Virus record (IMG/VR): IMGVR_UViG_3300020162_002681
Coordinates: 62,001 to 126,000 of that record
DNA from: a virus
Strand: one strand, 5' to 3'
DNA length: 64,000 bases
The notes under the pieces were generated by a model. The model saw nothing but the letters and a program-made list of their open reading frames with translations. It ran no database searches and was not told where the DNA came from. Positions 6,184 to 62,048 of the stretch are shown piece after piece (position 1 is the first letter of the stretch; each line of letters starts with the position of its first letter). Both the position numbers and the translations under genes were made by a program.

Positions 6184-6315
6184 ATGAAACACTTTGCAGA
6201 ATTTGAGAACATTTATCAAACTGGATTGAAAAATCTCCTGACAAACAACACAGAACCTGCTGTGAAGAAATACATCAGAAAGAAGAAAGAACAGGCAGAG
6301 ACAGAAAAAGAATAA
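6184..6315 (+). CDS. 43-residue peptide with MKHFAEF N-terminus
   Basis: A short frame starts 7 bp after the FN3 gene and encodes 43 residues. The C-terminal half is strongly basic and then charged (KKYIRKKKEQ, then EKE). Its first seven residues, MKHFAEF, match the MQHFADF start of the gene at 21515-22078 and the internal MQHFANF of the gene at 61074-62048. The N-terminus also resembles the short capsid-targeting sequence of T4 internal proteins. A packaged internal peptide is an inference. The spacing in the operon supports translation. Confidence 0.5.
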   Translation: MKHFAEFENIYQTGLKNLLTNNTEPAVKKYIRKKKEQAETEKE

Positions 6316-6498
6316 TAGGGCGCAGACCAGTTTCAGCTTAACGTGGTAGAGGCTTGGTCTGCTGTTTCGGTTCCTAGTTTGAGCATACTTTCGCATAGGC
6401 TTAAGAACCCTGTTAAAAATCGGATGCCCCAGACTGCAAATCGTTCCCGCGAATACCCATAACAACTTTTTATATAGAGTGTAATTAATATAACACAA
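6316..6498. other. intergenic stretch with hairpin between convergent genes
   Basis: This 183 bp gap separates the plus-strand fibre operon from the minus-strand portal gene. It holds an 8 bp perfect stem (GCAGACCA 6322-6329 with TGGTCTGC 6355-6362). The sequence between the stem arms looks like a tRNA D-arm (GTGGTAGAGG). No run of T follows, so it is not a standard intrinsic terminator, and no complete tRNA cloverleaf could be folded. It may be an RNA 3' end or a decayed tRNA. Confidence 0.3.
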
Positions 6499-8040
6499 CT
6501 ATTGTGCTGGCGGCGCTCCCTCTTCAGGAGGATATGCTTCGGCTCCACCTCCTTCTGGTGGGGTTGGGGGCATCTGCATCTGCTGTAACTGTGCCTGTAG
6601 CTGTACAACTTGTGTTTGGTCTTGTAGCTCCTTCTGTATTTGGGCTTTGAGGGCATCTTCAGCTTTTTTCTCTTTCTCAGTTTCGTCGAGAGAGGGCAGT
6701 CCAAGATTTTTGTAGATGAGGTTAAGAACTTGGACGTTATTGGTGTCAATGATACCACTTGCCATGAGCGAAGTGATGGTGCTGAGACGACCATTTACAG
6801 TAGCTTGGTCTTCCTCTACATCGAATACAAACTCGCCCCAATCTTCGCTGAACCAGCTTGAAGGGAAGTTATCGTGAAGCAAGCCACGAATCATCTTGTG
6901 AATAATTTCGTGCTTGAGAGTTGTTGTCAGTGCAAAAATGGTTGAGTCAAAGGTCATCTTGAAATTCTGACCAAAGCCGTTATTGCCTAAATTTGTCGTG
7001 CCAGAGCCACTGTTAACATCAAAGATGCCTGAAGGTATAGCGAAACTGGATTGAATGCCTCTGTCGATGTATTCTAGTGCCTTGAAATGATTGTCGCTAG
7101 TGTTTTGTATTTGAATGCGTTGCAGGTCTACATCACTATCGGTGACAATAAACCCACGTTTTTGTATATCTTTCAATTGGTAACTGAGCGCGATTTGCTT
7201 TGTCACCTGCATAGGCTTTTTAGTTTTTTCATCGATTTTTACTTTGCCCTGAGCATCCACTAAGGTTGTTGTACCATTGGCAGGGGTTTTTGCCCATAAC
7301 AGACCTTCGCTGTCATTTTTGATGCGGAGAGCTAGGTGTGTGAGTACCACGCGCTTTAATTTGTAATACGGCAAAGCTGAAACCCCGTCTCCCACACCCC
7401 ATACAGCCGTTTTATCGAATGTAGCTCCGCTATTATTTACGATGTGCAAGCATTTGGAATAAGGTATCTTTACTTGCTTTCCAGAACCATTATCATATAA
7501 AATCCACTCAATTTTCCCAGAACTTTTAGATGATTTACCAAAAGATATGATTTGGTCTGGATTTAAGACGTTTAAATTTGCAATTCGCCACTGCCCCCTG
7601 TATCCTCGCAACTTAGATGATTTGGTAAATTCTACTACAGCCACCCCATGTAAAATAACTGAACTAAAAATTTTAAATATTGTTTGTTTGAAGCTTTTAG
7701 ATAAAGTTTTTAAGTTACTATTAACAAAAGCCTCTATTTCTTTCTTGGGATGTGAATATTCTCCGAAACTGCTGGCGCACCTCAAAGCCTTAAAAGCTAA
7801 ACACTGACTGACTATGGGGTCTTTCGCAGCCATGATGGATAAGTCCTTAATGGCGGGACGCTCGACCTCCTGTGGGTGGTTTATCTCAGCAAAAGCTAAT
7901 CCTGTGAGCGCCGCGATTTCTGTGCTATACATCCCTTGGACGGAGGCATTGAGGGGCGTAGGAGTGCCAGCAAAAAGTAACTCGTTATCAAGTTCTGCAA
8001 GATTAAGTTCTAACTGGTTGACTTCTTGGAAAAGAGGCAT
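6499..8040 (-). CDS. portal protein
   Basis: The 513-residue protein has the order and signatures of phage portals (SPP1 gp6 / DUF935-like). An N-terminal helical region is followed by LNVLNPDQIISF (wing strand) and SFAIPSGIFDV. Near residue 430 there is a VNGRLSTITSLMASGIID helix block, then a Gln/Pro/Glu-rich tail. The portal forms the dodecameric ring at the packaging vertex and docks TerL. It lies about 50 kb from TerL and 30 kb from the capsid gene, an unusual separation. A homing endonuclease gene lies immediately upstream. Confidence 0.85.
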   Translation of the reverse strand: MPLFQEVNQLELNLAELDNELLFAGTPTPLNASVQGMYSTEIAALTGLAFAEINHPQEVERPAIKDLSIMAAKDPIVSQCLAFKALRCASSFGEYSHPKKEIEAFVNSNLKTLSKSFKQTIFKIFSSVILHGVAVVEFTKSSKLRGYRGQWRIANLNVLNPDQIISFGKSSKSSGKIEWILYDNGSGKQVKIPYSKCLHIVNNSGATFDKTAVWGVGDGVSALPYYKLKRVVLTHLALRIKNDSEGLLWAKTPANGTTTLVDAQGKVKIDEKTKKPMQVTKQIALSYQLKDIQKRGFIVTDSDVDLQRIQIQNTSDNHFKALEYIDRGIQSSFAIPSGIFDVNSGSGTTNLGNNGFGQNFKMTFDSTIFALTTTLKHEIIHKMIRGLLHDNFPSSWFSEDWGEFVFDVEEDQATVNGRLSTITSLMASGIIDTNNVQVLNLIYKNLGLPSLDETEKEKKAEDALKAQIQKELQDQTQVVQLQAQLQQMQMPPTPPEGGGAEAYPPEEGAPPAQ

Positions 8041-8067
8041 ATCTATAGTGAATTTTATCGATTAACC

Positions 8068-8805: not shown

Positions 8806-8824
8806 TGCATATATCCCTTTTTAA

Positions 8825-8832
8825 TGTATAAT
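8825..8832 (+). promoter_or_regulatory. promoter -10 (TGTATAAT)
   Basis: TGTATAAT lies 27 bp upstream of the RHH start and is preceded by a T-rich tract. The same octamer precedes two other isolated genes (11781-11788 on the minus strand and 12094-12101 on the plus strand). Confidence 0.5.
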
Positions 8833-8859
8833 TAAACTATAACACATTGTGAGTACAAA

Positions 8860-9006: not shown

Positions 9007-9009
9007 ATA

Positions 9010-10024: not shown

Positions 10025-10025
10025 T

Positions 10026-10567: not shown

Positions 10568-10575
10568 CCCAATTT

Positions 10576-10658
10576 GGAAGGTTGAACATAGGCACGTTAA
10601 GCTCTTTGCTAAAGAGTCGAGGGTAATACCTCTGTAGATTCGACTTCTACACCTTCCG
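10576..10658 (+). tRNA. tRNA-Ser (GCT)
   Basis: The acceptor GGAAGGT/ACCTTCC is perfect. The anticodon loop TTGCTAA gives GCT. A long variable arm (GAGG/CCTC) marks a class II tRNA. The T-arm is GTAGA-TTCGACT-TCTAC. Discriminator G. No encoded CCA. Confidence 0.88.
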
Positions 10659-10661
10659 TTT

Positions 10662-10742
10662 GGAAGAATGCGCTCATGGGGGCAAACGGTCTTGAAAACC
10701 GCGCTAGGGTCACACCTAACAGTTCGATTCTGTATTTTTCCT
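10662..10742 (+). tRNA. tRNA-Ser (TGA)
   Basis: The acceptor is GGAAGAA/TTTTTCC. The anticodon loop CTTGAAA gives TGA. The variable arm is TAGG/CCTA and the T-loop TTCGATT. The T-stem has four good pairs. The long variable arm supports serine. Confidence 0.8.
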
Positions 10743-10761
10743 TTGGCAATCGATTGCCAAA
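10742..10761. repeat. 20 bp perfect palindrome
   Basis: TTTGGCAATCGATTGCCAAA is fully self-complementary and abuts the 3' end of tRNA-Ser(TGA). It could be a processing hairpin or a dimeric protein site. There is no T-run, so it is not a standard terminator. Confidence 0.6.
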
Positions 10762-10766
10762 AACAA

Positions 10767-10879
10767 AACACCCTTCCGAGTGTCTCGGATTGCTTAGTGA
10801 AAGTGGCAGCTTCAACGCTGCGTCTAGCCGCATAAAGGCTAGGCTACCACAGGTGGAGACGGAAGCTAATATTGGTGTT
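10767..10879 (+). ncRNA. candidate structured non-coding RNA in tRNA array
   Basis: No gene is supported here, but the sequence folds well. The outer stem AACACC/GGTGTT (10767-10772 with 10874-10879) is stacked on CTTCCG/CGGAAG (10773-10778 with 10860-10865). They enclose a junction with hairpins GCAGC-TTCAAC-GCTGC, CTAGCC-GCATAAA-GGCTAG and CTACC-ACA-GGTGG. The overall shape is a multibranch, tRNA-sized RNA, but no tRNA cloverleaf with a T-loop fits. I do not recognise the family. The plus strand is inferred from the flanking tRNAs. Confidence 0.45.
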
Positions 10880-10893
10880 CATAACAATAAGAG

Positions 10894-10984
10894 TTGCATT
10901 ACGTGAGTATGCAAAGTTGGGGCTGGTAATACTACAGGCTGTCAGAAGGTTCCAAGAACGGTTGCAAAACAGTTGAGAGCTGAC
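10894..10984 (+). ncRNA. second structured segment upstream of tRNA-Gly
   Basis: The hairpin TTGCAT/ATGCAA (10894-10914) is followed by a GTCAG/CTGAC stem (10941-10945 with 10980-10984) enclosing GTTC-CAA-GAAC. It may be part of the same RNA as the preceding feature, or a leader of the tRNA-Gly transcript. Support is only from folding by eye. Confidence 0.25.
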
Positions 10985-10998
10985 CTCTTATTTAACTT

Positions 10999-11072
10999 GC
11001 GGAACTAGCTCAATTTGGTAGAGCAAGCCCCTTCCAAGGGAAAGGTTAAGAGTTCAAGTCTCTTGTTTCGCT
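10999..11072 (+). tRNA. tRNA-Gly (TCC)
   Basis: The acceptor is GCGGAAC/GTTTCGC, the D-arm GCTC...GAGC and the T-arm AAGAG-TTCAAGT-CTCTT. The loop CTTCCAA gives TCC. The anticodon stem has only three good pairs (CCC/GGG), with two mismatches above. The 3' 19 bases overlap the end of the convergent HNH gene. Confidence 0.8.
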
Positions 11073-11773
11073 TTTTTAGTAATTCCATATTCCTTGCATC
11101 TATTTCTTATAGTTATATCGCTTACGCCATATATTTTAGAGATTTTTATCATAGAATATTTATTTACAAGGTCTTGTAAGGTATTTCTATCTATGTGAAA
11201 TTTTATAGTTTGATTTTTATATCTATTAGAACATTTTACACATCTCTTAGACTGCCTTAATATATCTAATCCACAATCAACGCATTTTAAATTGGGCTTT
11301 ACTTTAATGTTTTTACCTGCATAATTATCTGTTTGGGAATGGCAATTTGGACAAAGTATTCTTAAATTATCGATTCTATTGTCGTTATTTATACCGTTTA
11401 TATGGTCAAGCTGTAAACTAAGCTTAGCTCCATTCCATTCCCCAAGATTATTGCAAATAGCGCAAGAATAGTTCAAAATACCTTCTTTTACTAGTCTAGC
11501 TTTTAGGTTGGAAGTGTTATTATACTTAGAATTTTCTACTAAGATTAAATCTAAATCTATTTTCGATTTAGGTTGGGATTTTATATATTTCGCCCTATTT
11601 ACATCCAAATTATTCAAACATAAACCATTTTCACCTATGAGTTTTTTAAGGCACTCATAATTTGTGCTGTGTACAGGAACACCGACGTTTGTTAAAACTT
11701 GTTTGAGTGTATCCGACTCATTCAATAGTTTTTGTAGGTCGATAGTACTTAAACTTTTTAATTTTTTACTCAT
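11054..11773 (-). CDS. HNH homing endonuclease
   Basis: The 239-residue protein has a zinc-bound HNH core. CAICNN is followed by LDHINGINNDNRIDNLRILC and PNCHSQT (residues ~100-152). A second Cys pair cluster follows (CVDCG...RCVKCS, ~162-178), then a helix-turn-helix (LVNKYSMIKISKIYGVSDIT) that probably gives sequence specificity. It sits between tRNA-Gly and tRNA-Gln on the opposite strand, and its last codons overlap the tRNA-Gly 3' end. The frame is intact. Confidence 0.88.
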   Translation of the reverse strand: MSKKLKSLSTIDLQKLLNESDTLKQVLTNVGVPVHSTNYECLKKLIGENGLCLNNLDVNRAKYIKSQPKSKIDLDLILVENSKYNNTSNLKARLVKEGILNYSCAICNNLGEWNGAKLSLQLDHINGINNDNRIDNLRILCPNCHSQTDNYAGKNIKVKPNLKCVDCGLDILRQSKRCVKCSNRYKNQTIKFHIDRNTLQDLVNKYSMIKISKIYGVSDITIRNRCKEYGITKKAKQET

Positions 11774-11780
11774 AATCCCA

Positions 11781-11788
11781 ATTATACA
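11781..11788 (-). promoter_or_regulatory. promoter -10 (TGTATAAT) of HNH gene
   Basis: The minus strand reads TGTATAAT 8 bp before the HNH ATG, so the transcript would be nearly leaderless. It is the same octamer as at 8825 and 12094. Confidence 0.4.
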
Positions 11789-11852
11789 CTACCTTAAAAC
11801 AGGTATTCCCTAAAACCAAGAGATGAGATATCGTAATTCTCTAACCGCTTAA

Positions 11853-11923
11853 TCCTTTGTAGTGAAATGGCATCACACGACACTTTGATTGTCGCATTCT
11901 ACGTTCGACCCGTAGCAAAGGAA
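11853..11923 (+). tRNA. tRNA-Gln (TTG)
   Basis: The acceptor TCCTTTG/CAAAGGA is perfect. The anticodon arm CGACA-CTTTGAT-TGTCG gives TTG. The T-loop is TTCGACC with stem ACG/CGT. Discriminator A. Confidence 0.85.
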
Positions 11924-11933
11924 TTGGGATGCT

Positions 11934-12008
11934 GAGATAGAACCCAAACGGCTAGGGACATGACTGTGAATCATGGTTTAGTGAGTTCGACCCTCACCTA
12001 TCTCCCCA
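11934..12008 (+). tRNA. tRNA-His (GTG), CCA encoded
   Basis: The acceptor is GAGATAG/CTATCTC. The anticodon arm CATGA-CTGTGAA-TCATG gives GTG. The T-arm is GTGAG-TTCGACC-CTCAC. Discriminator C73 is followed by an encoded CCA, the only one in this array. The base at -1 is T rather than the G expected for bacterial tRNA-His. Confidence 0.87.
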
Positions 12009-12011
12009 AAT

Positions 12012-12083
12012 GGCTCTCTAGCATAATGGTATTGCACTTGCTTTGTAAGCAAAAGATTGTCAGTTTGATTCTGACGGGAGCCT
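12012..12083 (+). tRNA. tRNA-Thr (TGT)
   Basis: The acceptor is GGCTCTC/GGGAGCC. The anticodon loop TTTGTAA gives TGT on stem TTGC/GCAA. The T-arm is GTCAG-TTTGATT-CTGAC. Discriminator T. It begins four bases after the CCA of tRNA-His. Confidence 0.85.
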
Positions 12084-14376: not shown

Positions 14377-14766
14377 CTAGAAATTTACAAAGTGCTGAAA
14401 ATTGCCACTGAAACCGCCGTATTGCCCTTGGAGAGCCGCCTGTTGACTACGCCAAGCACTCGCAGGAATTTTTTTACGTGCTACACCTGCTGCATCAATG
14501 AAGCTATTTTCACCTAATGGTCTTTGAGGGTTTCTAGGTGCTTGTTGCTTTGCCATGCCTCTACCCACGCTGGCGCTAGCAATTGCTTCCTGTCTGTTCA
14601 GGCTAGGAGGGGAGTTCTGCACCACTGCTGACCTCTGATTTCTCGTCAACGCTAGAGGTGAGGAATTAATAGGAGTCTCACCCCAAGTTGGAACTTCAGG
14701 TGCTTTTGGTTTGAAACTTTGACGAAGCTGATTTGCTTTTTGCCCGATAGTGGAGGTAGGTAGCAT
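14377..14766 (-). CDS. 129-residue virion candidate ending in FQHFVNF
   Basis: The protein is basic, Pro/Gln/Ser-rich and low-complexity, without a recognised domain. Its last seven residues, FQHFVNF, closely match FKHFKNF at the end of the protein at 47373-47957 and MQHFANF elsewhere. This suggests a shared targeting or cleavage tag. The gene stands alone between large tail genes, with a TATAAA box about 30 bp upstream. Its stop overlaps the region of the RHH remnant. Confidence 0.55.
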   Translation of the reverse strand: MLPTSTIGQKANQLRQSFKPKAPEVPTWGETPINSSPLALTRNQRSAVVQNSPPSLNRQEAIASASVGRGMAKQQAPRNPQRPLGENSFIDAAGVARKKIPASAWRSQQAALQGQYGGFSGNFQHFVNF

Positions 14767-21514: not shown

Positions 21515-22078
21515 TTAGTAACGAATACGGGCTTTAGGCATTCTAACACCTGTAGATACCATGTCAACAGGTTCTTCCATCATTCCACCCATTCCTTTGT
21601 ATGAGTCAGTTCTAAATCCTAAGTATCCTGTTGGACTTGCAGCTTCATCGGTTGTTTTGCGAATATCTGTGAAGCCTTTAGTGTCTGGGGTTTTCACGTA
21701 ATCTCTTTTTAGTGGGTCAGGTGCATAGAGGTCTTTATATTCGTACCCTTTAGGCTTACGCATTAGTTGTGGTAATCCAGCCTCTTTTCTTAGTCTGGTT
21801 CTATTGCCGCCTCGGTCGTTATACCACTCATCCTTTAAAAGAGTATTTCCACCATCTCTAGTATCGAAACTATAAGGCTTTAATGACTCTCTAGCTACTC
21901 TAAGTGTATTTGCAGGTTTAGTCTGGCTTCCAAACGGTTTTAGTTTCTCATTTAGAGTGTCTTCTACTCCCTTACCGTACTTTTTTGTATATATTTCGTC
22001 AGCTTTACCTAATTGAGCATTTCTTTTCAGTTGTTTGTTTTGCTGCTTGATTACACCAAAATCTGCGAAGTGTTGCAT
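21515..22078 (-). CDS. 187-residue virion candidate starting MQHFADF
   Basis: The protein is basic and Lys/Arg/Gly-rich, with no recognised fold. Its N-terminus MQHFADFG nearly equals the internal MQHFANFG of the protein at 61074-62048 and the MKHFAEF peptide at 6184. By analogy with T4 internal-protein leaders this could be a capsid-targeting sequence removed by the prohead protease. It belongs to a run of closely packed small genes between the tail hub and the fibres. Confidence 0.55.
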   Translation of the reverse strand: MQHFADFGVIKQQNKQLKRNAQLGKADEIYTKKYGKGVEDTLNEKLKPFGSQTKPANTLRVARESLKPYSFDTRDGGNTLLKDEWYNDRGGNRTRLRKEAGLPQLMRKPKGYEYKDLYAPDPLKRDYVKTPDTKGFTDIRKTTDEAASPTGYLGFRTDSYKGMGGMMEEPVDMVSTGVRMPKARIRY

Positions 22079-40449: not shown

Positions 40450-41331
40450 TTATAGTCCGAAATCCAGACCCATAGCAATCAAGTCACCTTTGGCGGCTTC
40501 TTCAAGGCTAGATGAGAAATTAGCAGTTGCAACTTCTTCAGCACTAACACTGAAATCGGTGAACTGAGTAACATTAGCAATATTACGGAGCAAGCTATAA
40601 GCGAACTCCGACATATTAAGTTGTTCTTGCAAGTCACGCGCACCGTTAGTTTGAGCGATACCACTAAACTGAGCTACTCGTTGGCGAGGGTCAGAGAAGT
40701 TACCGATAAGAGCTTCCTTCATTGCTGGGGTAATAACACCATCAACAACGTCTTGGCTAATACGTGCGTTCAAGTCGCTCAACGCTTGGGAAAGTTGTGC
40801 TTCAAAGTTAGCTTGTGCAAAGTTAGCTTCAAGAGCTTCTTTTTCTGCGCGTAGCTTTTGAATTTCACTAACTACAGTCTTATTAAAGTTAGCTTGGATT
40901 GCGGGGTTATAAGCAGCCGCATAATCTGCTCCTTCTTGTGCCATATCTGGTTCTACGCCTCCTTCAGCGTCATCCGTATCATATTGAGCTTCTAGAGCTT
41001 GTTTATCCTGTTCTAAGACTCCATCAGCAACTTCGATAATTTGTTCAATATCTTCATCGTTAGCGTCAGGGAAAGCTCCAATCATTGCTTCGAGAATATT
41101 GACATCATCAACAATGTTTTCACCGCTAATGTAGCCAGTTACATCTTCTTCACTCAGTCCAGTAGATTGAACGAGAGCTTGAATACCAGCATCAATGTCG
41201 CCTTCATATTGGGCTTCAATTAAGTCTAGAAGTAATTCGCCAAAAGCATTGGTTGGATTGAGTTCGGTCATTTCCTGACCTGCCCCTTCCATACCAGCGT
41301 CCTGAGCGCCTAAATCTTGTTCTTCATCCAT
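40450..41331 (-). CDS. scaffold-like protein
   Basis: The 293-residue, very acidic protein has a Glu/Asp-rich N-terminal half. A coiled coil lies at ~150-195 (VSEIQKLRAEKEALEANFAQ). Its position upstream of the capsid gene and near the protease is the classic scaffold slot. Four ANF tripeptides (147-149, 169-171, 174-176, 270-272) plus GNF (210-212) would let the prohead protease cut it to small peptides, as scaffold removal requires. The ANF code is inference. Confidence 0.72.
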   Translation of the reverse strand: MDEEQDLGAQDAGMEGAGQEMTELNPTNAFGELLLDLIEAQYEGDIDAGIQALVQSTGLSEEDVTGYISGENIVDDVNILEAMIGAFPDANDEDIEQIIEVADGVLEQDKQALEAQYDTDDAEGGVEPDMAQEGADYAAAYNPAIQANFNKTVVSEIQKLRAEKEALEANFAQANFEAQLSQALSDLNARISQDVVDGVITPAMKEALIGNFSDPRQRVAQFSGIAQTNGARDLQEQLNMSEFAYSLLRNIANVTQFTDFSVSAEEVATANFSSSLEEAAKGDLIAMGLDFGL

Positions 41332-41421: not shown

Positions 41422-43074
41422 TTATTCTATAGGAATGTTAGGAATTTTACCCCTTTCTTGGGGGTTTGGGTTGGTTTTTGCCATACCTTTATTTTTACTT
41501 CTCCAGTCTTGCAGTTGCTTTTGATTGAGTCCGTAGCCAGCCGCCGAACCAACTCCACGACCCACAGCTCCCCCAGCAGCACCTAGTCCAAGCACTTTAC
41601 CAGCACGCCCAACCAAACCTGTACTTCTGCGTTGCTCTTCTGTCTCATTAATCCCAGCTCCCTCAAGAACCCCCAAACCAGCACCTACAGCAGTACCTAC
41701 ATTAGCAGGGTTAATTTGTGGAGAGAGATTCATAAAACGTTTTGCAGTTCCAGCAGCAGCCTTTTGAGCGCCTTGAACCAGACCCGTAGGAATCATGCCA
41801 AATGATGCAGACTTACGAACTGTCTTATTGTAACGAGCTTCATCTTCCTTTTTTCTTAGCCCATTAGCGGCAAGCAATCCACCACCAGCAAGTGCAGTAC
41901 CACCAACTCCGATAGCAGCAAGTCGAGCAGCTTTATCAGTGTCAAGAACCTTGGCAGCACCTTGTAATGCATCGTAAGTACCAGCAGCCGCCTTGTTAGC
42001 TCCTCCATTGAGTCTAGAGCCAATAATAGGAATACCACCTAAAAATTTATCTGTGGTGTTGATTTTGCCAGCAGCCTTACGAACTGCTTTAGCTGCGGGT
42101 TGTGTGATATACTTACCTGCCGAGGTCAACGCACTGTTAATTTGTGCACCAATTCCAAAATTCGCTTCTTGTTGGTGTTTTAGGAAGTTTGCAGATTTGC
42201 GGATTTCTTTATTAAAGTACTTACCAGTTGGCTTGCCAGATTCAATCATCGAGTTGATGTCCTTAACTCCCATGCTTGCTGGGATTTTAGGTTCTCTCAA
42301 CTTCTTTTTCTGCATCTTACCTTTAAGTGTTGTTTCAAGGGTAACAACTCCAGTATTGTCTTGAGGGATATAGGTACTACCTTTTTGGATTAGTCTTTGA
42401 ATTGTAGCTGGGTCTTGGAAATTAGCCGCTTTGCGAATTGATTTGCTCATATCTATTGTTTGTCCATTAAGTCCTTGGTTAGTTGCTCCTGTTGGCTTGC
42501 GTCGAAACACATTACCAAAGAATTGCTTAGTTGTTTCAATGTCTTGTTGTGCTTTACCAGCAGCCCTGTCTAGAAGTGAAGGTTGACTACCACTAGACTG
42601 ACGTTGTAAATCTTCATTCATTCTAGCTTCACGTTGCTCTAGATTAGGATTAACAATCTTTTGAACTTCCTGCTTAACATTCTGAATTTCGTCACTTACA
42701 GCTCTTCCAGTATCTTTGACTACTTTAACTGCTTTACGGATGCCTCTAGGGTTAGCTGCTTCATGTTCAGCCACAACAGCTTCTCTACGTTGTAACTCTC
42801 TTTCTGGAGCTTTAGATAAATTGTAGCGATTAGCCGCATATCCAGCACCAGCCCCCAGTCCAGCACCTACAGTCGTGCTTGTCAGTACTTTACCTAAACG
42901 ATTGCCAACATTAGTAGCTTTCTTTTCTGCATCTGACTCCAGAACTCCAGAGCCTTGTAGCAATCCAACTCCAGCACCAACACCAGCACCAATTTTCACT
43001 GCGTTAGGGAGGGCAGAAAGGAGGGATGGTTTGGCAAACTCAGCTTTTTTTTGTAGTAGTGATTTTTTATTCAT
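41422..43074 (-). CDS. glycine-zipper internal polyprotein candidate
   Basis: The 550-residue basic protein (ATG 43074, overlapping the upstream stop as TAATG) has two copies of a glycine-zipper module at residues ~26-84 and ~460-518 (GAGLGVLEGAGINETEEQRR, then GRAGKVLGLGAAGGAVG). A third hydrophobic Gly/Ala hairpin lies near 385-405. AEF (11-13), ANF (217-219, 295-297, 304-306) and ASF (423-425), often after RK(S/A), divide it into segments. A packaged, protease-processed internal protein acting on membranes at ejection is inferred. Confidence 0.6.
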   Translation of the reverse strand: MNKKSLLQKKAEFAKPSLLSALPNAVKIGAGVGAGVGLLQGSGVLESDAEKKATNVGNRLGKVLTSTTVGAGLGAGAGYAANRYNLSKAPERELQRREAVVAEHEAANPRGIRKAVKVVKDTGRAVSDEIQNVKQEVQKIVNPNLEQREARMNEDLQRQSSGSQPSLLDRAAGKAQQDIETTKQFFGNVFRRKPTGATNQGLNGQTIDMSKSIRKAANFQDPATIQRLIQKGSTYIPQDNTGVVTLETTLKGKMQKKKLREPKIPASMGVKDINSMIESGKPTGKYFNKEIRKSANFLKHQQEANFGIGAQINSALTSAGKYITQPAAKAVRKAAGKINTTDKFLGGIPIIGSRLNGGANKAAAGTYDALQGAAKVLDTDKAARLAAIGVGGTALAGGGLLAANGLRKKEDEARYNKTVRKSASFGMIPTGLVQGAQKAAAGTAKRFMNLSPQINPANVGTAVGAGLGVLEGAGINETEEQRRSTGLVGRAGKVLGLGAAGGAVGRGVGSAAGYGLNQKQLQDWRSKNKGMAKTNPNPQERGKIPNIPIE

Positions 43075-43523
43075 TAGTTGTTCCAGTGATGTGCTACAGT
43101 ATTTCCGAGTAGACCTGTTACAGCACCTAATCCAGTATAGCTTGCTTGTTGACCTAAGCCTTTTAGACCAGCCCAACGTTGCAGTTTAGCGGATTCATAG
43201 TCAGCTTTAGATTGTGCTTTTTCGATTGCCGAAGCACGTTGCTTAGGGTCTTCAAGTTGTTGTGCAGCCTCCAGTTGAGCAGTTAAGGCTTGGTTGTGAC
43301 GCTCAGTGGGGTCAGCACTACGTCTCAGAGCTTTCGCTTTGGTTTGAGCAGCAGCAGCCCGACCTACTTCAGAGCCAGCAAGACCTCCTAAAGTAGTACC
43401 AAGATAATCACCAACACCTTCACTTACTAAGGCTGAAGGGTCGAAGAAGTTTGCAACCGCTTTATCGTATGCACGTTTGAACTGCGAGTAAGTTGAATTA
43501 TGTTTGCGAAAGAATTTAGCCAT
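43074..43523 (-). CDS. small glycine-rich internal protein candidate
   Basis: The 149-residue basic protein has ANFFDP at 24-29, matching KTANFFDPF in the upstream 442-residue protein. Two Gly-rich hydrophobic segments follow (VGDYLGTTLGGLAGSEVG and GLGAVTGLLGNTVAHHW) with a charged helix between. If cut after ANF, a 26-residue basic leader (MAKFFRKH...) would be lost, as in capsid-targeting sequences. It is coupled to the next gene by a one-base overlap. Confidence 0.58.
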   Translation of the reverse strand: MAKFFRKHNSTYSQFKRAYDKAVANFFDPSALVSEGVGDYLGTTLGGLAGSEVGRAAAAQTKAKALRRSADPTERHNQALTAQLEAAQQLEDPKQRASAIEKAQSKADYESAKLQRWAGLKGLGQQASYTGLGAVTGLLGNTVAHHWNN

Positions 43524-43531: not shown

Positions 43532-44860
43532 CTATTGTAATGCCTCCCAGTTAGCACGTTTTAATCCAGTCCTAAGTACTGACCTAACATCTCCATTGAG
43601 AACTGAATCAATAATTCTATTCTTGGAGTCATCATCGATAAACCTATTCTGAGCTTTGTTTAGCAGTCCTCGGCGCAGTTGCTTATCCTTAATACCATCA
43701 AGAGCAGCTAACTTCTGAGCTTCAAACACTTCACTCTGTTCATCTGCGGCTTTCTTTTTGTTGTAAATACCATAAGCTGCACTACCGATAGCTAGGCTAG
43801 GGGTAATGAAAGGGTCGAAGAAGTTGGCAGTCTTACTTGTACCTCTAGAGTATTTAGCAGTACCTTTAGGTTTAGCTTGTTGTTGTGCAGGAGTTAGTCT
43901 ATCAAGGGGATTGTCTGTAACACTAGCTAACAAAGGATTACCAGTAATATTAGCAGCCTCACGAATCAGATTATCTGCGTGGTACTGAGGACTGTCGAAA
44001 TAATTAGCCGCAAAGTCTTGGGCATTCTTATCTTTGAGGCTATTTACCTTGTAAGCATCCAACGCTCTTTGCTTATTGAGCTTAGATAACAAACCGTACC
44101 CAGCTACTAAGGTTCCCCCAACAGCAGCTAAAGGCAGAGCTTTTTCTTTTTTAACGAAGAAAGGATTGCGAACACCAATTTTAGGGAATGCAAAATTCGC
44201 TGGAGCCACTAAAGGCGCAGCACTGAAGAAATTGTAAGGTACTTTAGGCTGAGTAGATTGTTGTTGTGCTTGTCTTTGTTCCAATAGCAGATTCCTCTTT
44301 GCAATAATTTCAGCCACCTTATCTCGATGACCTTGTGCCTGTGCTTGCTTTTCTTGTTCGACTTCTTTGTTTTTGTTATTTTGGTATATGGCTGTACCTG
44401 CGGCGATAGGGGCAAGGGTCAGTCCTCCTAAAGTTCCGTAGATGGCATTCTCACCAAAGCCTCTATCAATCAACTTATTGGCGACATGATTGACGACAGG
44501 AGTGACCAGAGGAATTCCACCACCACCCGAAAATTTGTCCCGCAGTCTTTGAGTTTCTGCATCGGCAAGCGCAGCTCTCTTAGCAGCTACTCTTTGACCT
44601 TGAGCACTACCTATCTCTGCTTGTGTGGGAGGGACTACAGGAGGCGCAGGAGGATTTAATTCTTGCAACCTCTTGTTATATACATCTTTACCCTCGGCTT
44701 GCAATCTTTTTTGTGCGAGAAACTTCTCAGCCTCAGTCATTGCAGAAGGTACTGGGTTTGCAGTAGCTTGCAACCTTCTCTTCTGCCTCATCCCAGCATT
44801 ATAAATGAGAGCAGACTTCCCGCCTCTAGGATTTTGTCTCACAGCAAATTCGCTTAGCAT
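43532..44860 (-). CDS. multi-membrane-segment internal polyprotein candidate
   Basis: The 442-residue protein has three hydrophobic segments, at ~137-160 (IYGTLGGLTLAPIAAGTAIY), 241-261 (ALPLAAVGGTLVAGYGLL) and 351-367 (FITPSLAIGSAAYGIY). They are separated by ANF sites at 221-223 and 345-347. Each predicted fragment would therefore carry one membrane-type helix. Basic, Gln-rich linkers join them. Its start overlaps the protease stop by 7 bp, so it is co-translated with the protease. Confidence 0.6.
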   Translation of the reverse strand: MLSEFAVRQNPRGGKSALIYNAGMRQKRRLQATANPVPSAMTEAEKFLAQKRLQAEGKDVYNKRLQELNPPAPPVVPPTQAEIGSAQGQRVAAKRAALADAETQRLRDKFSGGGGIPLVTPVVNHVANKLIDRGFGENAIYGTLGGLTLAPIAAGTAIYQNNKNKEVEQEKQAQAQGHRDKVAEIIAKRNLLLEQRQAQQQSTQPKVPYNFFSAAPLVAPANFAFPKIGVRNPFFVKKEKALPLAAVGGTLVAGYGLLSKLNKQRALDAYKVNSLKDKNAQDFAANYFDSPQYHADNLIREAANITGNPLLASVTDNPLDRLTPAQQQAKPKGTAKYSRGTSKTANFFDPFITPSLAIGSAAYGIYNKKKAADEQSEVFEAQKLAALDGIKDKQLRRGLLNKAQNRFIDDDSKNRIIDSVLNGDVRSVLRTGLKRANWEALQ

Positions 44861-45876
44861 TTAGCTGCACTTCCTCTTACATACTTTTTGACAGTACCTT
44901 TCGATAGGTTAAACAGAGCCAACTTATTAGTCCCCCGCTTGTATGTGGTTTGTTGTTGTAACTGAGGGATAGTCATCCCACTCTCAGTCCCTCCTTGCAA
45001 CTGTGCTTGGGTCTGTGCCGCTTGGTCTTGAGGAGTCATTACCCCAGCCTGTGCTTGCTGATTCATTTGTTGCATCAACTGAGTCAAACCGAGTAGTTCG
45101 ATAATCTTGACGCTGAATCCATTCAATTGTGAGTAAATCAACTGCAATAGAACTTCGGGGCTGTCAATGTTAATCGCATCATTGTCGTAAGCGTTCTTGA
45201 GTAGGAGCCAAAGCTTTTGGCAGACATCATTGTACTCTTCTTGCAAGTCATCGATTTGTTGGTCACTAGCATCAAGCTCGTCCCAAGTTACAGCATTCGA
45301 GGAGTCTGGAATACCTGTAAAGTTAGCAGTCATTGCTTTGCTTACTTTCTTGTGGAAAAGCCCCATGTTAGGGATTGCTGGAATAGGTACTAGAGACAGC
45401 TCCATAATACGATGTTCATTTGGGTCAAGGTTTAATCCCATGCTGACGCTCTTAACACCACTACGCAATGCTTCGATTCCTTTGGCTGCTGCAACTTTAA
45501 CACCAGACAAGAACATTCCAAGCTTACCAACTAGATGCTGAGAATTTTGGTTAGGTAAATCTTCTTCTGTGATAACTTTGGTGTAAGCGCGTCCACTAAT
45601 GCTTCCGATAGTATTTGGAATATCTTTCTTGTGGTCTGCACAAACGGGAACGACAGTACCGCTATCAATAGCTCGATTAGTATGCTCAACGATTGTATTT
45701 AAACGTTCGGCACTAAAATCGTGTTCAATATCTGTAGAGTCGGTGAACTTACCCTCAGTGGCAACGAGTGCGGTATATTCACTTTTAATTGGAGTGCCAG
45801 ATACCAACACCTGCCCCAACTCAAAGTTGGCTCTTGATGCTGGGGCTTTAAAATAGGCGATGTTGGTTTTCTTCAT
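44854..45876 (-). CDS. prohead serine protease
   Basis: The 340-residue protein has the herpesvirus/HK97-type prohead protease signature. His82 lies in CADHKKD, Ser144 in KSVSMGL, and MELSLVPIPAIPNMG (158-172) is the classic strand after the active site. ANF sites at 16-18 and 184-186 bracket exactly the catalytic core (~168 residues), suggesting self-cleavage at both ends. The Gln-rich C-terminal 150 residues may act as a scaffold segment. It is followed by internal-protein, scaffold and capsid genes. Confidence 0.85.
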   Translation of the reverse strand: MKKTNIAYFKAPASRANFELGQVLVSGTPIKSEYTALVATEGKFTDSTDIEHDFSAERLNTIVEHTNRAIDSGTVVPVCADHKKDIPNTIGSISGRAYTKVITEEDLPNQNSQHLVGKLGMFLSGVKVAAAKGIEALRSGVKSVSMGLNLDPNEHRIMELSLVPIPAIPNMGLFHKKVSKAMTANFTGIPDSSNAVTWDELDASDQQIDDLQEEYNDVCQKLWLLLKNAYDNDAINIDSPEVLLQLIYSQLNGFSVKIIELLGLTQLMQQMNQQAQAGVMTPQDQAAQTQAQLQGGTESGMTIPQLQQQTTYKRGTNKLALFNLSKGTVKKYVRGSAAKC

Positions 45877-45902: not shown

Positions 45903-46685
45903 TTATATACCAAACGCTTGCTTAGCTTTAGTTAGGTATGCTAATCTATCATCCCAACCATTTGTCCCACCATTTATGATGCGGGTGATACTCTCGAAAT
46001 CATCTGCATCTGCGTAATCATTTAGGTTTCGACTTGACCAGAACCACCCTGCACCAATAGGGGCAAGTTCGTCCGTTCCTAGCAACGAAGGGTTAGCTAC
46101 CAAGTTAATACCCTTGTACTTAGGGTCAAGGTCAAGGTAGTCAGTCAATTCCTGATAGTTAGCTCTCCCAGTTACTTGAATAAAACTGCGTCCTTTAAAA
46201 CGTACACCATCACCTTTATAATTATTGCCGAGGTCGCGCCGCCATTCGTAGTCAGCACCACTTGCATACTCTTCATTAGTATTGAAGCCGTCACTCTCAT
46301 GGGCAATTTGGGCTAAAAAATGACAAATACGAAGAGGTGTATTGATTCCGTACTTAAAAAGAGCTGCGTTGATTGGTTCGAGTATAGCTTCTATCCTTTC
46401 CCATCCAACATGTGTAGCAATGTTCCCTAGTTGCTCACGCGACAGAAAAAAAGGTTTGATGAATTTAGGGTCGTTAAGCTCAATGTGGAGTCTCCACGCA
46501 TACACGTAAACATTCTCAGCTACTTCAAGTTGTACATGACCATCATCAGTGTCACTCCAAGATAGAAACTCACCAACCTTTTGACCTTCAAGAAATTCGC
46601 GCTTCTCTCCTTCTTTCAACGCAGAGGATTGAAGCGGTTTTAGCTTGAACCAAGTGTTCTCTTTGATAGTTGCTATGTATTTCAT
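45903..46685 (-). CDS. GH19-family endolysin
   Basis: The 260-residue protein has an SH3-like N-terminus (~1-70) and a GH19 (chitinase/lysozyme-like) catalytic domain (~78-260). The latter has HFLAQIAHESDGF with the likely acid Glu130, a second Glu at ~138-139, KGRSFIQVTGRANYQ and ITRIINGGTNGWDDR. It would cleave peptidoglycan for release. There is no signal peptide, so it needs the neighbouring holin candidate. Confidence 0.9.
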   Translation of the reverse strand: MKYIATIKENTWFKLKPLQSSALKEGEKREFLEGQKVGEFLSWSDTDDGHVQLEVAENVYVYAWRLHIELNDPKFIKPFFLSREQLGNIATHVGWERIEAILEPINAALFKYGINTPLRICHFLAQIAHESDGFNTNEEYASGADYEWRRDLGNNYKGDGVRFKGRSFIQVTGRANYQELTDYLDLDPKYKGINLVANPSLLGTDELAPIGAGWFWSSRNLNDYADADDFESITRIINGGTNGWDDRLAYLTKAKQAFGI

Positions 46686-46689: not shown

Positions 46690-47103
46690 TTACTTGATGA
46701 GCTTCAAAAGGTTGAGAGGGTTCTTGACAACATCAACTACTTCTTGTGCATCATCAATCACATCTTGCACAGTATTCAGTGTAGTATCTACAACTACATT
46801 CACAGACTCATCTTTGCCTAGTGGCAAGCTGATTGTTTGGACTTCTGGGTTTTCAAGCACTTGCGATTTACTCTTCCCAAGAGGTTCCCAATTTGGCGTA
46901 TAAAGATTAGGCTCATTCTTCATTTTTTCAGCACTAACTCCAAGTCCCGCTAAAACTACAACTAGTAAATTCAAGTACTTATCTACTGTCCCGCCATTTT
47001 TAATGATGTCACTGATATTGGGGGTAGATGCAGTTATTAGACCTATTGCCAAAGAAATAAAAGTGTTGGTAGTGAACAGATTTCTAGGTTGAGGAGTAGA
47101 CAT
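46690..47103 (-). CDS. holin candidate
   Basis: The 137-residue protein has two N-terminal transmembrane segments, TFISLAIGLITAS (~12-27) and YLNLLVVVLAGLGVSA (~43-58). A short loop separates them, and a long charged soluble tail follows. It ends 4 bp before the endolysin start, the usual lysis pairing. A TATAAT box lies about 10 bp upstream. It could be another small membrane protein, but adjacency to the lysin favours a holin. Confidence 0.65.
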   Translation of the reverse strand: MSTPQPRNLFTTNTFISLAIGLITASTPNISDIIKNGGTVDKYLNLLVVVLAGLGVSAEKMKNEPNLYTPNWEPLGKSKSQVLENPEVQTISLPLGKDESVNVVVDTTLNTVQDVIDDAQEVVDVVKNPLNLLKLIK

Positions 47104-47143: not shown

Positions 47144-47386
47144 ATGAACGACAAATTACTATTTAACCAGCAAGTCGGAGAGAAGCTGCGTAGCTTACGC
47201 AAGGCTAGGAATAAGTCTCAGGCTAGTGTTGCGGCAGATTTTGCTTTCGGGCAAGATGTTGTTAGTGAAATTGAGCGTGGGGTTAAAACAATTAGTGCAT
47301 TTGAGCTGGTAGCTTTCAGTGCATATTACGAAAAACCGATTACCTACTTCTTTATGAACTCGGCGCTACCCACTAAAAATTCTTAA
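47144..47386 (+). CDS. XRE-family transcriptional regulator
   Basis: The 80-residue protein has a Cro/CI helix-turn-helix: LRSLRKARNKSQASVAADFA, then QDVVSEIERGVKTISAFEL (residues ~15-60). It is a lone plus-strand gene divergent from the lysis genes, sharing a 40 bp AT-rich promoter region. It probably regulates lysis or late genes, or its own promoter. It converges with the gene at 47373 with a 14 bp overlap. Confidence 0.85.
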   Translation: MNDKLLFNQQVGEKLRSLRKARNKSQASVAADFAFGQDVVSEIERGVKTISAFELVAFSAYYEKPITYFFMNSALPTKNS

Positions 47387-47957
47387 AATGTTTGAACGAA
47401 CTAGACATCGGTGCTATTTGAGGGGAACCTTTTCCACGTAATTTAGACAATACTCCGCCAGCACTTTTTATAGCTGCTAAACCTATCTTTGGCGCATCAT
47501 GAAAGTACATCTTAGGTCTTGTCACTATTTGCTTTTTAGCCGTCTCTAGTGCAGCTTTACCAGATTCCTGCATAACCTCTCTTGGCGTTAATTTACGTCC
47601 AAGCTGTTTACTTTTATCCGCAACTCCTCGAACATTTCGATAGGTTGCCGCCATACCATCAGCAATCGGATTTCCCCAGCCTTCACTATCACGCAACACA
47701 TGACCACCAGTTTCAAGTGCTGCCTTAGCAACTCGTTGTGGCAGCTTATCGCCAGCATTGGCTTGGTAAGTGTCTTTAGCTGTCTTTGCCCATTTAGGGA
47801 AGTTAGGGGCATTCATGGCTACGGGAAGTGCACTCATGTCACCAAAACTAGGATGATAACTATATACCGCATTTCTAGCTGCATCAAAAGCTGAAGGAAT
47901 ATCAACGTGTTGCAGAGCTTGAAGCCCCTCAAACATAAAGTCAGCTTGTCTGGTCAT
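47373..47957 (-). CDS. 194-residue virion candidate ending in FKHFKNF
   Basis: The protein is basic and Ala/Lys/Pro-rich, with no recognised domain. The C-terminus FKHFKNF mirrors FQHFVNF of the protein at 14377, and an APNF lies near residue 72. A C-terminal capsid-targeting or cleavage tag is inferred. It lies between lysis and minor head genes. No promoter is evident in the 100 bp upstream. Confidence 0.5.
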   Translation of the reverse strand: MTRQADFMFEGLQALQHVDIPSAFDAARNAVYSYHPSFGDMSALPVAMNAPNFPKWAKTAKDTYQANAGDKLPQRVAKAALETGGHVLRDSEGWGNPIADGMAATYRNVRGVADKSKQLGRKLTPREVMQESGKAALETAKKQIVTRPKMYFHDAPKIGLAAIKSAGGVLSKLRGKGSPQIAPMSSSFKHFKNF

Positions 47958-59559: not shown

Positions 59560-59583
59560 GTGTATATTGTGATATATTGTGTA

Positions 59584-59592
59584 AGTATATCA
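59584..59592 (-). promoter_or_regulatory. extended -10 promoter of TerL (TGATATACT)
   Basis: The minus strand reads TGATATACT 25 bp before the TerL ATG, inside the 48 bp AT-rich divergent region between TerL and the plus-strand TerS operon. Confidence 0.5.
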
Positions 59593-59607
59593 TTAGGATG
59601 AATTTGA

Positions 59608-59850
59608 ATGGTTCCAGACTATTTTCACCAAAAAGCTGCATACAATCATAAAAAAGATGATAACGTTGCTGTATCTAAAGGTTTCCAAGATTTTATAGAT
59701 ACGTTACCTAAGACTTATGAACCTAAAGATATTCGGATTGGTTCTAAAGTACCCATGACCTACAAAGAGCGTGTAAAGTACTTGCACAATTCTGAGTTAG
59801 GTAAATTAATGGGTTTTAAACAAGATGGCTCGATTCAAAGTTCAGATTAA
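59608..59850 (+). CDS. 80-residue hypothetical protein
   Basis: This is the first gene of the plus-strand TerS operon. It is Lys/Asp-rich and soluble (YFHQKAAYNHKKDDNVAVSK), with no known motif. It overlaps the next gene by 26 bp. A packaging accessory role is inferred only from the operon. Confidence 0.55.
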   Translation: MVPDYFHQKAAYNHKKDDNVAVSKGFQDFIDTLPKTYEPKDIRIGSKVPMTYKERVKYLHNSELGKLMGFKQDGSIQSSD

Positions 59851-60172
59851 AGGCAGCATACTCAAGCAGCCAATGAAGCGCTACATTCCTCCAGATGTTA
59901 TTGGTGTGCAGTTCTTGATTGATTTTGCTAAGTGTGATGCTAAGAATCCTCATACTATTGAATACTTGAAGGTCATAGTACCGACAGAAAAGAATGTGGT
60001 AGCTGCCAATGCCGTAATGGTGTGGACAGTATTGCATAAAGAGCTAGACTTGAAGCTCTATAGCCCTAAGCAGAGCGTGGTAGACTACATAGACAATCAC
60101 CTCACTCCGTTCGGGGTGCAGAAAAAAGAGATTAGGAGATGTGAAGCTAGTGGCACAATACAGAGTAACTAA
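59825..60172 (+). CDS. 115-residue hypothetical protein
   Basis: The basic alpha/beta protein is not recognised (RFKVQIKGSILKQPMKRYIP). It overlaps both neighbours (26 and 32 bp), indicating translational coupling in the TerS operon. Function unknown. Confidence 0.55.
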   Translation: MARFKVQIKGSILKQPMKRYIPPDVIGVQFLIDFAKCDAKNPHTIEYLKVIVPTEKNVVAANAVMVWTVLHKELDLKLYSPKQSVVDYIDNHLTPFGVQKKEIRRCEASGTIQSN

Positions 60173-60359
60173 GCTCGATGATGAGTTGTGGGGTGTTCAG
60201 CAAAAGGTATTGTTATGGTGGCTAAACTACAGCGTTGTACAGTGGGTGTCTGAGAACAATTTCCATTCTGTACCTGAGAAGATGGCAGTTGTCTTTTTGT
60301 CTGAGCGAGAAGCTGAAGATTTTGTCGAATTAATGAATAAGAGGGAATTAAATGTCTAG
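60141..60359 (+). CDS. 72-residue hypothetical protein
   Basis: The protein starts with GTG at 60141 (a second GTG at 60150 is possible). It is small and Trp-rich (LLWWLNYSVVQWVSENN), with a C-terminal helix (SEREAEDFVELMNKRE). It overlaps TerS by 8 bp. No family recognised. Confidence 0.5.
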   Translation: MKLVAQYRVTKLDDELWGVQQKVLLWWLNYSVVQWVSENNFHSVPEKMAVVFLSEREAEDFVELMNKRELNV

Positions 60360-61077
60360 TCCAATCGAGCAAAAGTTAAAATCACTACGCAACTTGAATA
60401 GTGGTCAGCCCGAATTACAAAAGCTAACTATTCACAAACTCAGCAAGACAAGCTGGGTCAACTGGAATCATATTAGGCAAGCGTATATTCTTGGCAAGCG
60501 TATTGAAGAGTTCGACGAGGAGACGGGGCATACACGAATTTGGTCTGAGAGCTACAACTTAGAGGAACTGGCACGAGAGTTTGGTGTTGGTGTCAGTCAG
60601 CTAACGAAGAAATCTGCAATTGAAGGTTGGGGTGGATTGCGCGATAGCTATTTGGCGCGAGTACAGGAGGAGGCGCTTGGTACTGAGCTTGGCTATTTCA
60701 CTAATGAGGAGAGCGAGACTGAGGCAAACAGCTTGGCTATCATTCGTAAGGGTATGAAGCTGATTAACTTGGGACTTGAGCAAGAGTACGGAGACTTACT
60801 TGAGGCTGTGGACGCTGATGGTGATGTGGACTTGCGTGAATATAGTAAGGTCAACTTGAAGGCTTTAGCTGAGGGAATCAAGGGGTTGAAAGCACTGCAT
60901 GAACTACATGGCAAGATAATGGAAAATGCCCCTAAAACTAATCAGGAGCTGCTAGAACAATTGAATCGCAGTAAGACGGTGGAGAGACTAAAGAATCCTA
61001 AAGAACGTGAGAAACTGCAAAAGGAGCTACAAAAGAAATTGCAACTCCTTAGTCAGATTGAAGAGGATGAGGACTAA
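60352..61077 (+). CDS. terminase small subunit candidate
   Basis: The 241-residue protein has a helix-turn-helix at ~70-100 (LEELAREFGVGVSQLTKKSA, then EGWGGLRDSYLARV). That layout is typical of phBC6A51-like small terminases. A helical middle and a Leu/Lys/Glu coiled coil at the C-terminus (~205-238) would support ring assembly. It neighbours the divergent TerL gene. The function is recognition of the packaging site. Confidence 0.72.
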   Translation: MSSPIEQKLKSLRNLNSGQPELQKLTIHKLSKTSWVNWNHIRQAYILGKRIEEFDEETGHTRIWSESYNLEELAREFGVGVSQLTKKSAIEGWGGLRDSYLARVQEEALGTELGYFTNEESETEANSLAIIRKGMKLINLGLEQEYGDLLEAVDADGDVDLREYSKVNLKALAEGIKGLKALHELHGKIMENAPKTNQELLEQLNRSKTVERLKNPKEREKLQKELQKKLQLLSQIEEDED

Positions 61078-62048
61078 GCTAAGTTGTCCATGTCTTGATA
61101 TGCTTTACGTCTCTTGTACATGGTGTTGCTAACCCTTGCGGCGTTCTCACCAGCAAGACCTAAACTTCCGCCGACAACTCCACCAGCAGCAGTGTTACCA
61201 AGAACTTTGCCAAGCCGACCTAATCCTGTAGTGTTAGCTTTTTCTTCTTCTGTCTCACCAATGCCAGCTCCTCTAGCCAGCCCAGCAGCAGCCCCAAGCC
61301 CTGCGCCAATCTGTACACCTCTAGTTGCACCAAATGCTTGAGCCGTATCCTTAAGTGCGCCTCCAGCAGCTTTAGCGTTGTTTAAGTAAGGCTGAGCTTT
61401 GTTTAGCATTGAAGGTAATGGGTTTGTAAAACCGAAGTTAGCGAAGTGTTGCATGTTTTTGTGTTGTGTGAAATTGATTCTACTATTGTAGCCTGTCATA
61501 AATGGCTTGCCTAATCTCTTAGCCGCATATAGGTTCTTTACTTCAGCTTCGTCATACTTATCTTTAATATTCTCAATTGCTGCATTATCGATAAGCCTAG
61601 CTTCGCGACGCTTTGGGTTGGGGTGTACTATATTTCCTTCGTGTATATCGACATGACCAAGATTTTGCTCACGTAGACGATTTTGGATACGACCAACTTG
61701 GCTCCCCAGTTTATACTGCTCCTTTGGTGCTATACCTTTTAATTTGTTAGGTAGAGGTTGACCAGCGTAATCTTGCGTGTAGGAGGTCATATTGCCACGT
61801 TCACGGTAGTTTTGCACTGGAGGCACTAGTCCTGTCGTTGTAGCTGCTTTACCTGCATTTGTATATTCTTTTCTACTGGCTTTTATGGCTGCTGCTCTGA
61901 CTTGAGGTGACTCAGGGTAGTAAGTACCGTCAGGGAGAATGTTGTCGATGCGTACCTTGTTTGTGGCAGGGAAATGTAGTACACGCTTATCTGGTGTGAG
62001 AAGAAGTGCTTTGGCGTTACGGATACGAGCGAAGGATGAGATGTTCAT
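61074..62048 (-). CDS. internal virion protein candidate with kinase-like loop and glycine zipper
   Basis: In the 324-residue basic protein, residues 131-154 (GHVDIHEGNIV ... ARLID) resemble the catalytic loop and metal-binding Asp of kinase/APH folds. MQHFANFG at 199-206 matches the tag found in other proteins. Residues ~246-303 are a glycine-zipper module (GAGLGAAAGLARGAGIGETE) nearly identical in pattern to the two in the protein at 41422-43074. If cut at ANF it would release a kinase-like part and a zipper part. Confidence 0.6.
   Translation of the reverse strand: MNISSFARIRNAKALLLTPDKRVLHFPATNKVRIDNILPDGTYYPESPQVRAAAIKASRKEYTNAGKAATTTGLVPPVQNYRERGNMTSYTQDYAGQPLPNKLKGIAPKEQYKLGSQVGRIQNRLREQNLGHVDIHEGNIVHPNPKRREARLIDNAAIENIKDKYDEAEVKNLYAAKRLGKPFMTGYNSRINFTQHKNMQHFANFGFTNPLPSMLNKAQPYLNNAKAAGGALKDTAQAFGATRGVQIGAGLGAAAGLARGAGIGETEEEKANTTGLGRLGKVLGNTAAGGVVGGSLGLAGENAARVSNTMYKRRKAYQDMDNLA

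Follow-up and report, generated by a model that had tools for sequence, protein, structure and literature searches.

The 64,000-base window analysed here, bases 62001-126000 of the 146,232-base virus record IMGVR_UViG_3300020162_002681 (hereafter W), encodes five scattered proteins that carry a seven-residue tag, MxHFxxF or its C-terminal form FxHFxNF, at the beginning, at the end or in the interior of the chain (Table 1). A 10-kb stretch of the window shows ~81% DNA identity with the Pseudanabaena phages PA-SR01 (over 49% of its length) and Pam2 (44%), and judged by this identity W is a relative of both, all being viruses of freshwater cyanobacteria. Crassvirus-type cargo, our first guess, was ruled out, as the window is cyanophage; the available text of a crassvirus paper makes no mention of such a tag (PMC10172136).

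Seven phages were compared: W, PA-SR01 (SR01), Pam2, and the IMG/VR records G001, G002, G003 and G004, which were located via their capsid protein or the tag. As genes we took open reading frames (ORFs) chosen by a greedy overlap rule, without curation; because this rule drops the 43-residue gene at window position 6184, that gene is not among the tagged genes counted below, while its homologues are.

Table 1 Coordinates of tagged genes, head-block genes and further leader genes.
Feature	Record	Coordinates	Strand	Tag, sites or modules
43-residue protein	window	6184-6315	+	N-terminal tag MKHFAEF at 6184-6204, then module NIYQTGLKNLL
129-residue protein	window	14377-14766	-	FQHFVNF at 14380-14400, the last seven residues
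187-residue protein	window	21515-22078	-	N-terminal MQHFADF at 22058-22078; adjoins tail genes
Likely scaffold (named from place and make-up only)	window	40450-41331	-	Four A-[NDES]-F sites against 0.54 expected
Multi-module head-block protein	window	41422-43176	-	Five A-[NDES]-F sites against 0.26 expected (e.g. IRKAANF, IRKSANF)
442-residue head-block protein	window	43532-44860	-	Two A-[NDES]-F sites
Predicted head maturation protease	window	44854-45876	-	A-N-F at residues 16-18 (45823-45831) and 184-186 (45319-45327)
194-residue protein	window	47373-47957	-	FKHFKNF at 47376-47396, the last seven residues; N-terminal MTRQADF at 47937-47957
324-residue protein	window	61074-62048	-	Kinase-like domain, tag MQHFANF at 61434-61454 (residue 199), glycine-rich module
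Second leader family	window	1-50	-	Gene leaves the window; family also in G001-G004
Second leader family	SR01	66875-67657
Second leader family	Pam2	59748-60500
MT(D)(F/Y)xxMNSPL leader gene	L008 (W record, outside the window)	1471-1962
MT(D)(F/Y)xxMNSPL leader gene	SR01	124079-124582
MT(D)(F/Y)xxMNSPL leader gene	Pam2	117947-118447
MT(D)(F/Y)xxMNSPL leader gene	G001	110474-110974
MT(D)(F/Y)xxMNSPL leader gene	G002	124492-124992

A conserved heptapeptide at module borders

Gene-like ORFs of 45 residues or more contain 3, 10, 10, 8, 10, 4 and 6 copies of M.HF..F in W, SR01, Pam2, G001, G003, G002 and G004, respectively, against means of 0.00-0.04 per phage over 300 within-protein shuffles. Across 17 records, most of them selected for containing the tag or the capsid gene, the pattern searched in DNA gave 50 matches against one for the reversed pattern, two of the 17 having none. 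The narrower MQHFA[ND]F was found in 27 stretches, eight of which lie outside the phage group and look like chance (L041, L043, L045, L048, L051, L057, L059 and L061); its control MQFHA[ND]F gave nine, in ORFs of 17 or 53 residues comprising two recurrent sequences. No paper on this tag was found in the openly licensed literature by HFANF, MKTYQEF or topic.

The original prediction had described five tag copies in the window with differing codons, in genes otherwise unrelated to one another. All five were located in place, and the 54 MxHFxxF copies of the seven phages comprise 49 distinct 21-base spellings: MQHFANF is written in 12 ways across 13 copies, and no two copies of the same peptide within one phage are identical in DNA. 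It is therefore the peptide that is conserved. The proposed search for the motif at protein ends in related phages returned 61 tagged genes, C-terminal form included, which fall into 16 clusters when the tag is masked, the largest joining four families via fusion proteins. Unrelatedness describes the clusters, but the five genes of the window are partly linked in relatives, G004 for example fusing the 43-residue module behind a kinase-like domain and a tag. Loss of the tag from homologues, which had been named as evidence against the prediction, was not seen: all 48 full-length homologues (at least 60% coverage both ways) carry it. Residues 4 and 7 are fixed by the search pattern, yet they are kept in these 48 homologues, which were found without it. 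The 43-residue protein has homologues in all six other phages, and the 129-residue protein has homologues ending in the tag in Pam2, SR01, G001 and G004; the 187-residue protein belongs to a nine-member cluster, tagged throughout, and the 194-residue protein to one of three members.

The tag is N-terminal in most families. It closes the chain, as its last seven residues, in the 129- and 194-residue families, and is internal in the kinase-like protein and a few others. It often stands at module borders, where genes fuse and split across relatives. A single SR01 gene comprises an N-terminal domain, MEHFANF and an SNF2 helicase. In G001 this N-terminal domain precedes MKHFANF and a glycine-rich module, with the helicase encoded separately and beginning MKHFADF. 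Likewise, the G002 homologue of the 129-residue protein extends beyond FQHFANF with a glycine-rich module; in other cases modules of this type have a tagged gene to themselves (G003 26627) or come after the kinase-like domain.

An Ala-x-Phe element in the head gene block

The A-x-F tripeptide was first noticed in head-block proteins and counted afterwards. As A-[NDES]-F it shows a five- to seven-fold excess in the head gene block, with 18 sites against 3.5 expected in W (11 proteins), 19 against 2.8 in SR01 (10 proteins) and 18 against 2.9 in Pam2 (9 proteins), counts reached by none of 400 shuffles in each phage. Outside the block, observed and expected counts were 32 and 33.1 in W and 35 and 27.9 in SR01. 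Among 14 control classes counted in the head blocks, the strongest excesses were S-[NDES]-F in SR01 (4 against 1.4 expected) and A-[NDES]-Y in W (7 against 2.6). The sites, most of which are conserved, occur in the likely scaffold, in the predicted protease and in multi-module proteins, a pattern that would suit head protease substrates. Those of the likely scaffold are conserved in four or five of five phages, its sole PHROGs match, to a tail protein, being weak (E 0.009), and both A-N-F sites of the predicted protease are kept in six of six phages, though the preceding residue varies or is absent. The protease itself is predicted from a weak profile match and its place; no Pfam match was obtained, and its PA-SR01 homologue is noted as a Mu-like prophage I protein. 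The gene of the multi-module protein probably starts at 43074, as in Pam2, and homologues of the 442-residue protein start MSLKAEF, MLSLKAEF or MLDNAEF.

The same element has a preferred spacing from methionine: M-x3-A-[NDES]-F accounts for 41 cases against 1-24 for 15 other spacings tried, the 24 (x13 spacing) coming mostly from a few conserved families, and for 32 against 0-14 when only starts in the first 25 residues are considered. Eight of the 41 are not HF tags (e.g. MSLKAEF, MRKSANF, MLDNAEF and MTRQADF). The original prediction had placed an ANF-like cut inside the tag. This holds for most copies, but not for those with THF, AHF, VYF, TYF or VCF, in which the cut-like motif is mostly a separate element downstream, nor for the two C-terminal tags of the window, ending VNF and KNF.

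This separation follows a compensatory pattern. A second A-[NDES]-F within 18 residues follows 2 of 34 tags with A-[NDES]-F at residues 5-7 and 9 of 18 tags without it (Fisher p 4.8e-4, the rows including orthologues and so not being independent), against a background of 2.0% of all 18-residue windows. With a sharper split, chosen post hoc (tags with a residue other than N, D, E or S at position 6; A or S followed by [NDES]-F as the second site), the second site follows 11 of 12 tags against 2 of 40. Among held-out sequences (17 of 23 rows from the group; L045, L048, L110, L113, L116 and L122 dropped as outside), it was present in 4 of 5 tags without a site of their own and in 2 of 12 with one. 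A switch between overlapping and separate A-x-F was seen in five families, in four of which the sequence after the last A-x-F (marked here by a slash), presumably the mature part, is identical in both forms: MQHFANF/IRLSDK and MQHFTHFATTTANF/IRLSDK, MQHFANF/ALGDTELG and MQHFAHFNSQNANF/ALGDTELG, MKHFANF/ANIYQTGLQNL and MKHFTHFAKAHSSGANF/ANIYQTGLQNL, and MQHFANF/GYVKQANKQ and MQHFTHFRSFEADF/GYVKQANKQ. Held-out MQHFASF/VRLTD pairs in the same way with SR01 MQHFTHFGSSTASF/VRLTD. The HF tag and A-x-F therefore look like separate functions that usually overlap.

Several other features of the head block were recorded. The major capsid protein starts MAYIENF in the window; it was ruled out as a leader, since the other five phages have MATTSPIEAF, MATMSPIEAF or MAMSPIESF. 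A Protein Data Bank (PDB) sequence search with the capsid protein returned no match. Directly behind the capsid gene, a 190-residue ORF (37540-38112, minus strand) looks by eye like a GIY-YIG homing endonuclease. Two minus-strand genes within the block (45903-46685 and 46690-47103) probably serve lysis: the gene in the corresponding position in Pam2 is named glycoside hydrolase, and the next gene has a hydrophobic stretch. A glycine-rich module, recognisable by G-x-G-x-x-E-(S/T)-x-E-E-(K/R) and perhaps membrane-active, recurs in head-block and tagged proteins, up to several per chain; examples are 41422-43176 and 61074-62048 in the window and many in relatives.

Candidate cargo proteins and gene orientation

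Tagged proteins are mostly 43-376 residues long, with one or two recognisable modules. The helicase is clearly of SNF2 type, and in an NCBIfam search of ten proteins it matched helicases, nothing useful being returned for the other nine. A kinase-like family has GHxDxHEGN and LIDN motifs, with weak matches to ABC1 in four of seven members and to RIO1 in one; a PDB search with its profile returned eight sequences, all at E 0.2 or worse, and none of 88 pattern matches in bacterial and archaeal genomes encodes a relative of it. Two families have H-T-H-P and P-S-x-x-D motifs, which we take to be the JAB metalloprotease pattern; one of five members matched JAB, at E 0.12. SR01 4111 matches DUF5754.

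Across the six phages in which a capsid gene was found (G004, with 7 rows, being excluded), 45 of 53 tagged genes lie on the capsid-gene strand, compared with 373 of 987 genes of at least 80 residues (p 5e-13, a value that ignores orthology). In 7 of 7 phages the member of the W 26790 family is isolated on its strand, both neighbouring genes running the opposite way. This mostly late-strand orientation, read from gene positions, supports packaging of the tagged proteins. A search for a shared late promoter (GGTATACT, GGTATTCT and GATATACT) gave matches before a few tagged and structural genes, with no clear rule.

Two further leaders were observed in these phages. One family, present in all seven, has a conserved 17-residue leader ending ANF (MRISxYAxAT...ANF), a variable middle, and a conserved C-terminal KVRRYNGF(V/I)Y behind SPFANF; conserved ends around a variable middle are as expected for a protein with removable ends, and by these features the family is perhaps head cargo trimmed on both sides. 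A small gene with the leader MT(D)(F/Y)xxMNSPL...A(D/E)F, likely another head-cargo candidate, is a lone late-strand gene amid opposite ones in the annotated SR01 and Pam2 records. Elsewhere in the window, a plus-strand tRNA cluster (10575-12083) contains three genes on which Rfam and ARAGORN agree, one found by Rfam only (11934-12005) and one by ARAGORN only (10575-10659, Ser). In the Pam2 record ON014754.1, several genes, in the structural block and elsewhere, bear implausible product names, those of eukaryotic proteins and toxins, which look like automatic misannotation.

A candidate head-packaging tag, its rivals and known systems

We consider it likely that the tagged proteins are phage head cargo, with MxHFxxF targeting them into the prohead and A-x-F serving as the cut site of the head protease. 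MxHFxxF would act as a docking peptide, carrying its protein into the prohead during assembly, presumably through contact with scaffold or capsid; the head maturation protease would cut after A-[N/D/E/S]-F, either behind F7 or at a later A-x-F. In most tags docking and cut site would overlap (MQHFANF), whilst in others a docking peptide such as MQHFTHF would be followed some residues on by a separate A-x-F. The docking peptide could sit N-terminally, C-terminally (FxHFxNF) or between two domains; a protease cut at the tag would leave modules much alike whether they were made fused or from separate tagged genes, which would explain why genes fuse and split there. The cargo, comprising SNF2 helicase, kinase-like, JAB-like, glycine-rich and possibly membrane-active modules, among others, would then be ejected with the DNA. 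The capsid-targeting leader with a built-in cut of the original prediction is favoured by the comparative evidence, from which we infer both presence in the head and cleavage. To a broader proposal we give about even chances: that this is a position-independent packaging-and-excision tag, with an Ala-x-Phe head protease freeing some twenty injected effector or membrane modules that are swapped like cassettes.

Several observations weigh against packaging and cutting of the tagged proteins. The four gel bands from PA-SR01 virions that were matched to ORFs (32, 46, 9 and 101; PMC7431792) correspond, by our count in the record, to untagged proteins, although four bands are too few for a judgement. 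Eight of the 53 tagged genes lie on the opposite strand, five of them from the 43-residue family and three encoding helicase or helicase-linked modules, and the 187-residue family adjoins tail genes. Regarding the cut site, C-terminal tags end VNF or KNF in some phages, SR01 49207 (AKF) is without a second A-[NDES]-F, as are, under the strict rule, seven of eight VNF/SNF/VYF-type exceptions, and in Pam2 A-[NDES]-F is also in excess outside the head block (48 against 31.6 expected, tags included). The PHROGs match of the predicted protease (phrog_976, E 1.7e-4) is weak, and AlphaFold gave no usable model of either the kinase-like or the JAB-like family, the mean predicted local distance difference test scores (pLDDT) being 37.8 and 34.2, respectively.

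The position of the 187-residue family and of several tagged Pam2 genes (Pam2_37 to Pam2_46) beside tail genes would suit a tag that docks outside the head, whether at the tail, at a membrane or at some structure that the phage builds inside the infected cell, and the helicase modules encoded opposite the capsid gene, together with glycine-rich modules that could be membrane-active, point the same way. We nevertheless regard such docking as unlikely, given that A-[NDES]-F, which most tags contain, shows enrichment in the head block but none elsewhere in W, and that the tag resembles a T4 head leader. The frequent placing of the tag at module borders, mostly with A-[NDES]-F inside it, could also mean that the peptide is merely a protease site or polyprotein linker devoid of any targeting role. 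This we hold to be quite improbable: H-F-x-x-F is kept where A-[NDES]-F is absent from the tag and supplied downstream, and the tag also occurs at the extreme C-terminus, where cutting would free nothing.

Some tagged genes do have a short upstream stretch in common, e.g. AAAACTATG, as recombination copying 5' gene ends would leave behind. Such copying is contradicted by the variety of codons, with no identical same-peptide pair within a phage, and the C-terminal and internal copies, the shuffle results and the unbroken retention in homologues stand against both copying and chance, an origin that we find scarcely credible. Taken together, head packaging is the reading that we prefer. It offers a sequence rule predicting which unknown proteins of these cyanophages are head cargo, and predicts an Ala-x-Phe head protease specificity unlike the Glu-directed ones of T4 and SPN3US. 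If true, it would make available a short tag with which proteins could be loaded into a phage head, and would help to identify proteins that are delivered as infection of freshwater cyanobacteria begins.

The nearest parallel is the capsid targeting sequence of T4 IPI-III and Alt, likewise a short leader on otherwise different proteins, which is cut by gp21. IPII and IPIII both start MKTYQEFIAE, and leader and tag have in common M1, an aromatic residue at position 4 and F7 (MKTYQEF and MKHFAEF), the cyanophage tag adding H3. In T4, residues 4 and 7 are mainly needed for targeting and residues 8 and 10 for processing, as described in the available text of PMC9026906, so that the cyanophage tag, if it works as proposed, would give the T4 pattern with aromatics at 4 and 7 a second example, from a phage with no apparent relation to T4. 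Both leaders are followed by, or end in, a tripeptide resembling a head-protease site, although T4 cuts after L/I-x-E (PMC9026906) and A-x-F is predicted for the cyanophages. Whereas the T4 leader is N-terminal and experimentally tested, the cyanophage tag, known from sequence in sixteen clusters of seven phages, is also C-terminal and internal; T4 Alt, for its part, is described as trimmed at both ends (PMC9026906).

Other systems share single features with the tag. P1 DarB likewise has an N-terminal signal that loads a large, multi-domain, host-directed protein into the head, but in P1 more than 9 residues are required, 30 at most, and the Dar proteins are described, in the text available, as having no common N-terminal consensus (PMC9024508). 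The ejection proteins and propeptides of SPN3US and phiKZ are head proteins cut at a tripeptide, which in SPN3US is A-x-E, again with Ala at P3; there P1 is Glu and propeptides span 20 to 254 residues (PMC10052503), whereas Phe is the predicted P1 of the cyanophages. Polyvalent phage proteins, for which an early-infection role has been proposed, include kinases without a C-lobe and SNF2 and RadC/JAB domains (PMC5512222). Among the tagged cyanophage proteins the SNF2 domain is clear, and the kinase-like and JAB-like assignments are weak. Polyvalent proteins, proposed to act at entry, have many domains per chain, whereas the cyanophages mostly have separate small genes, each with the tag.

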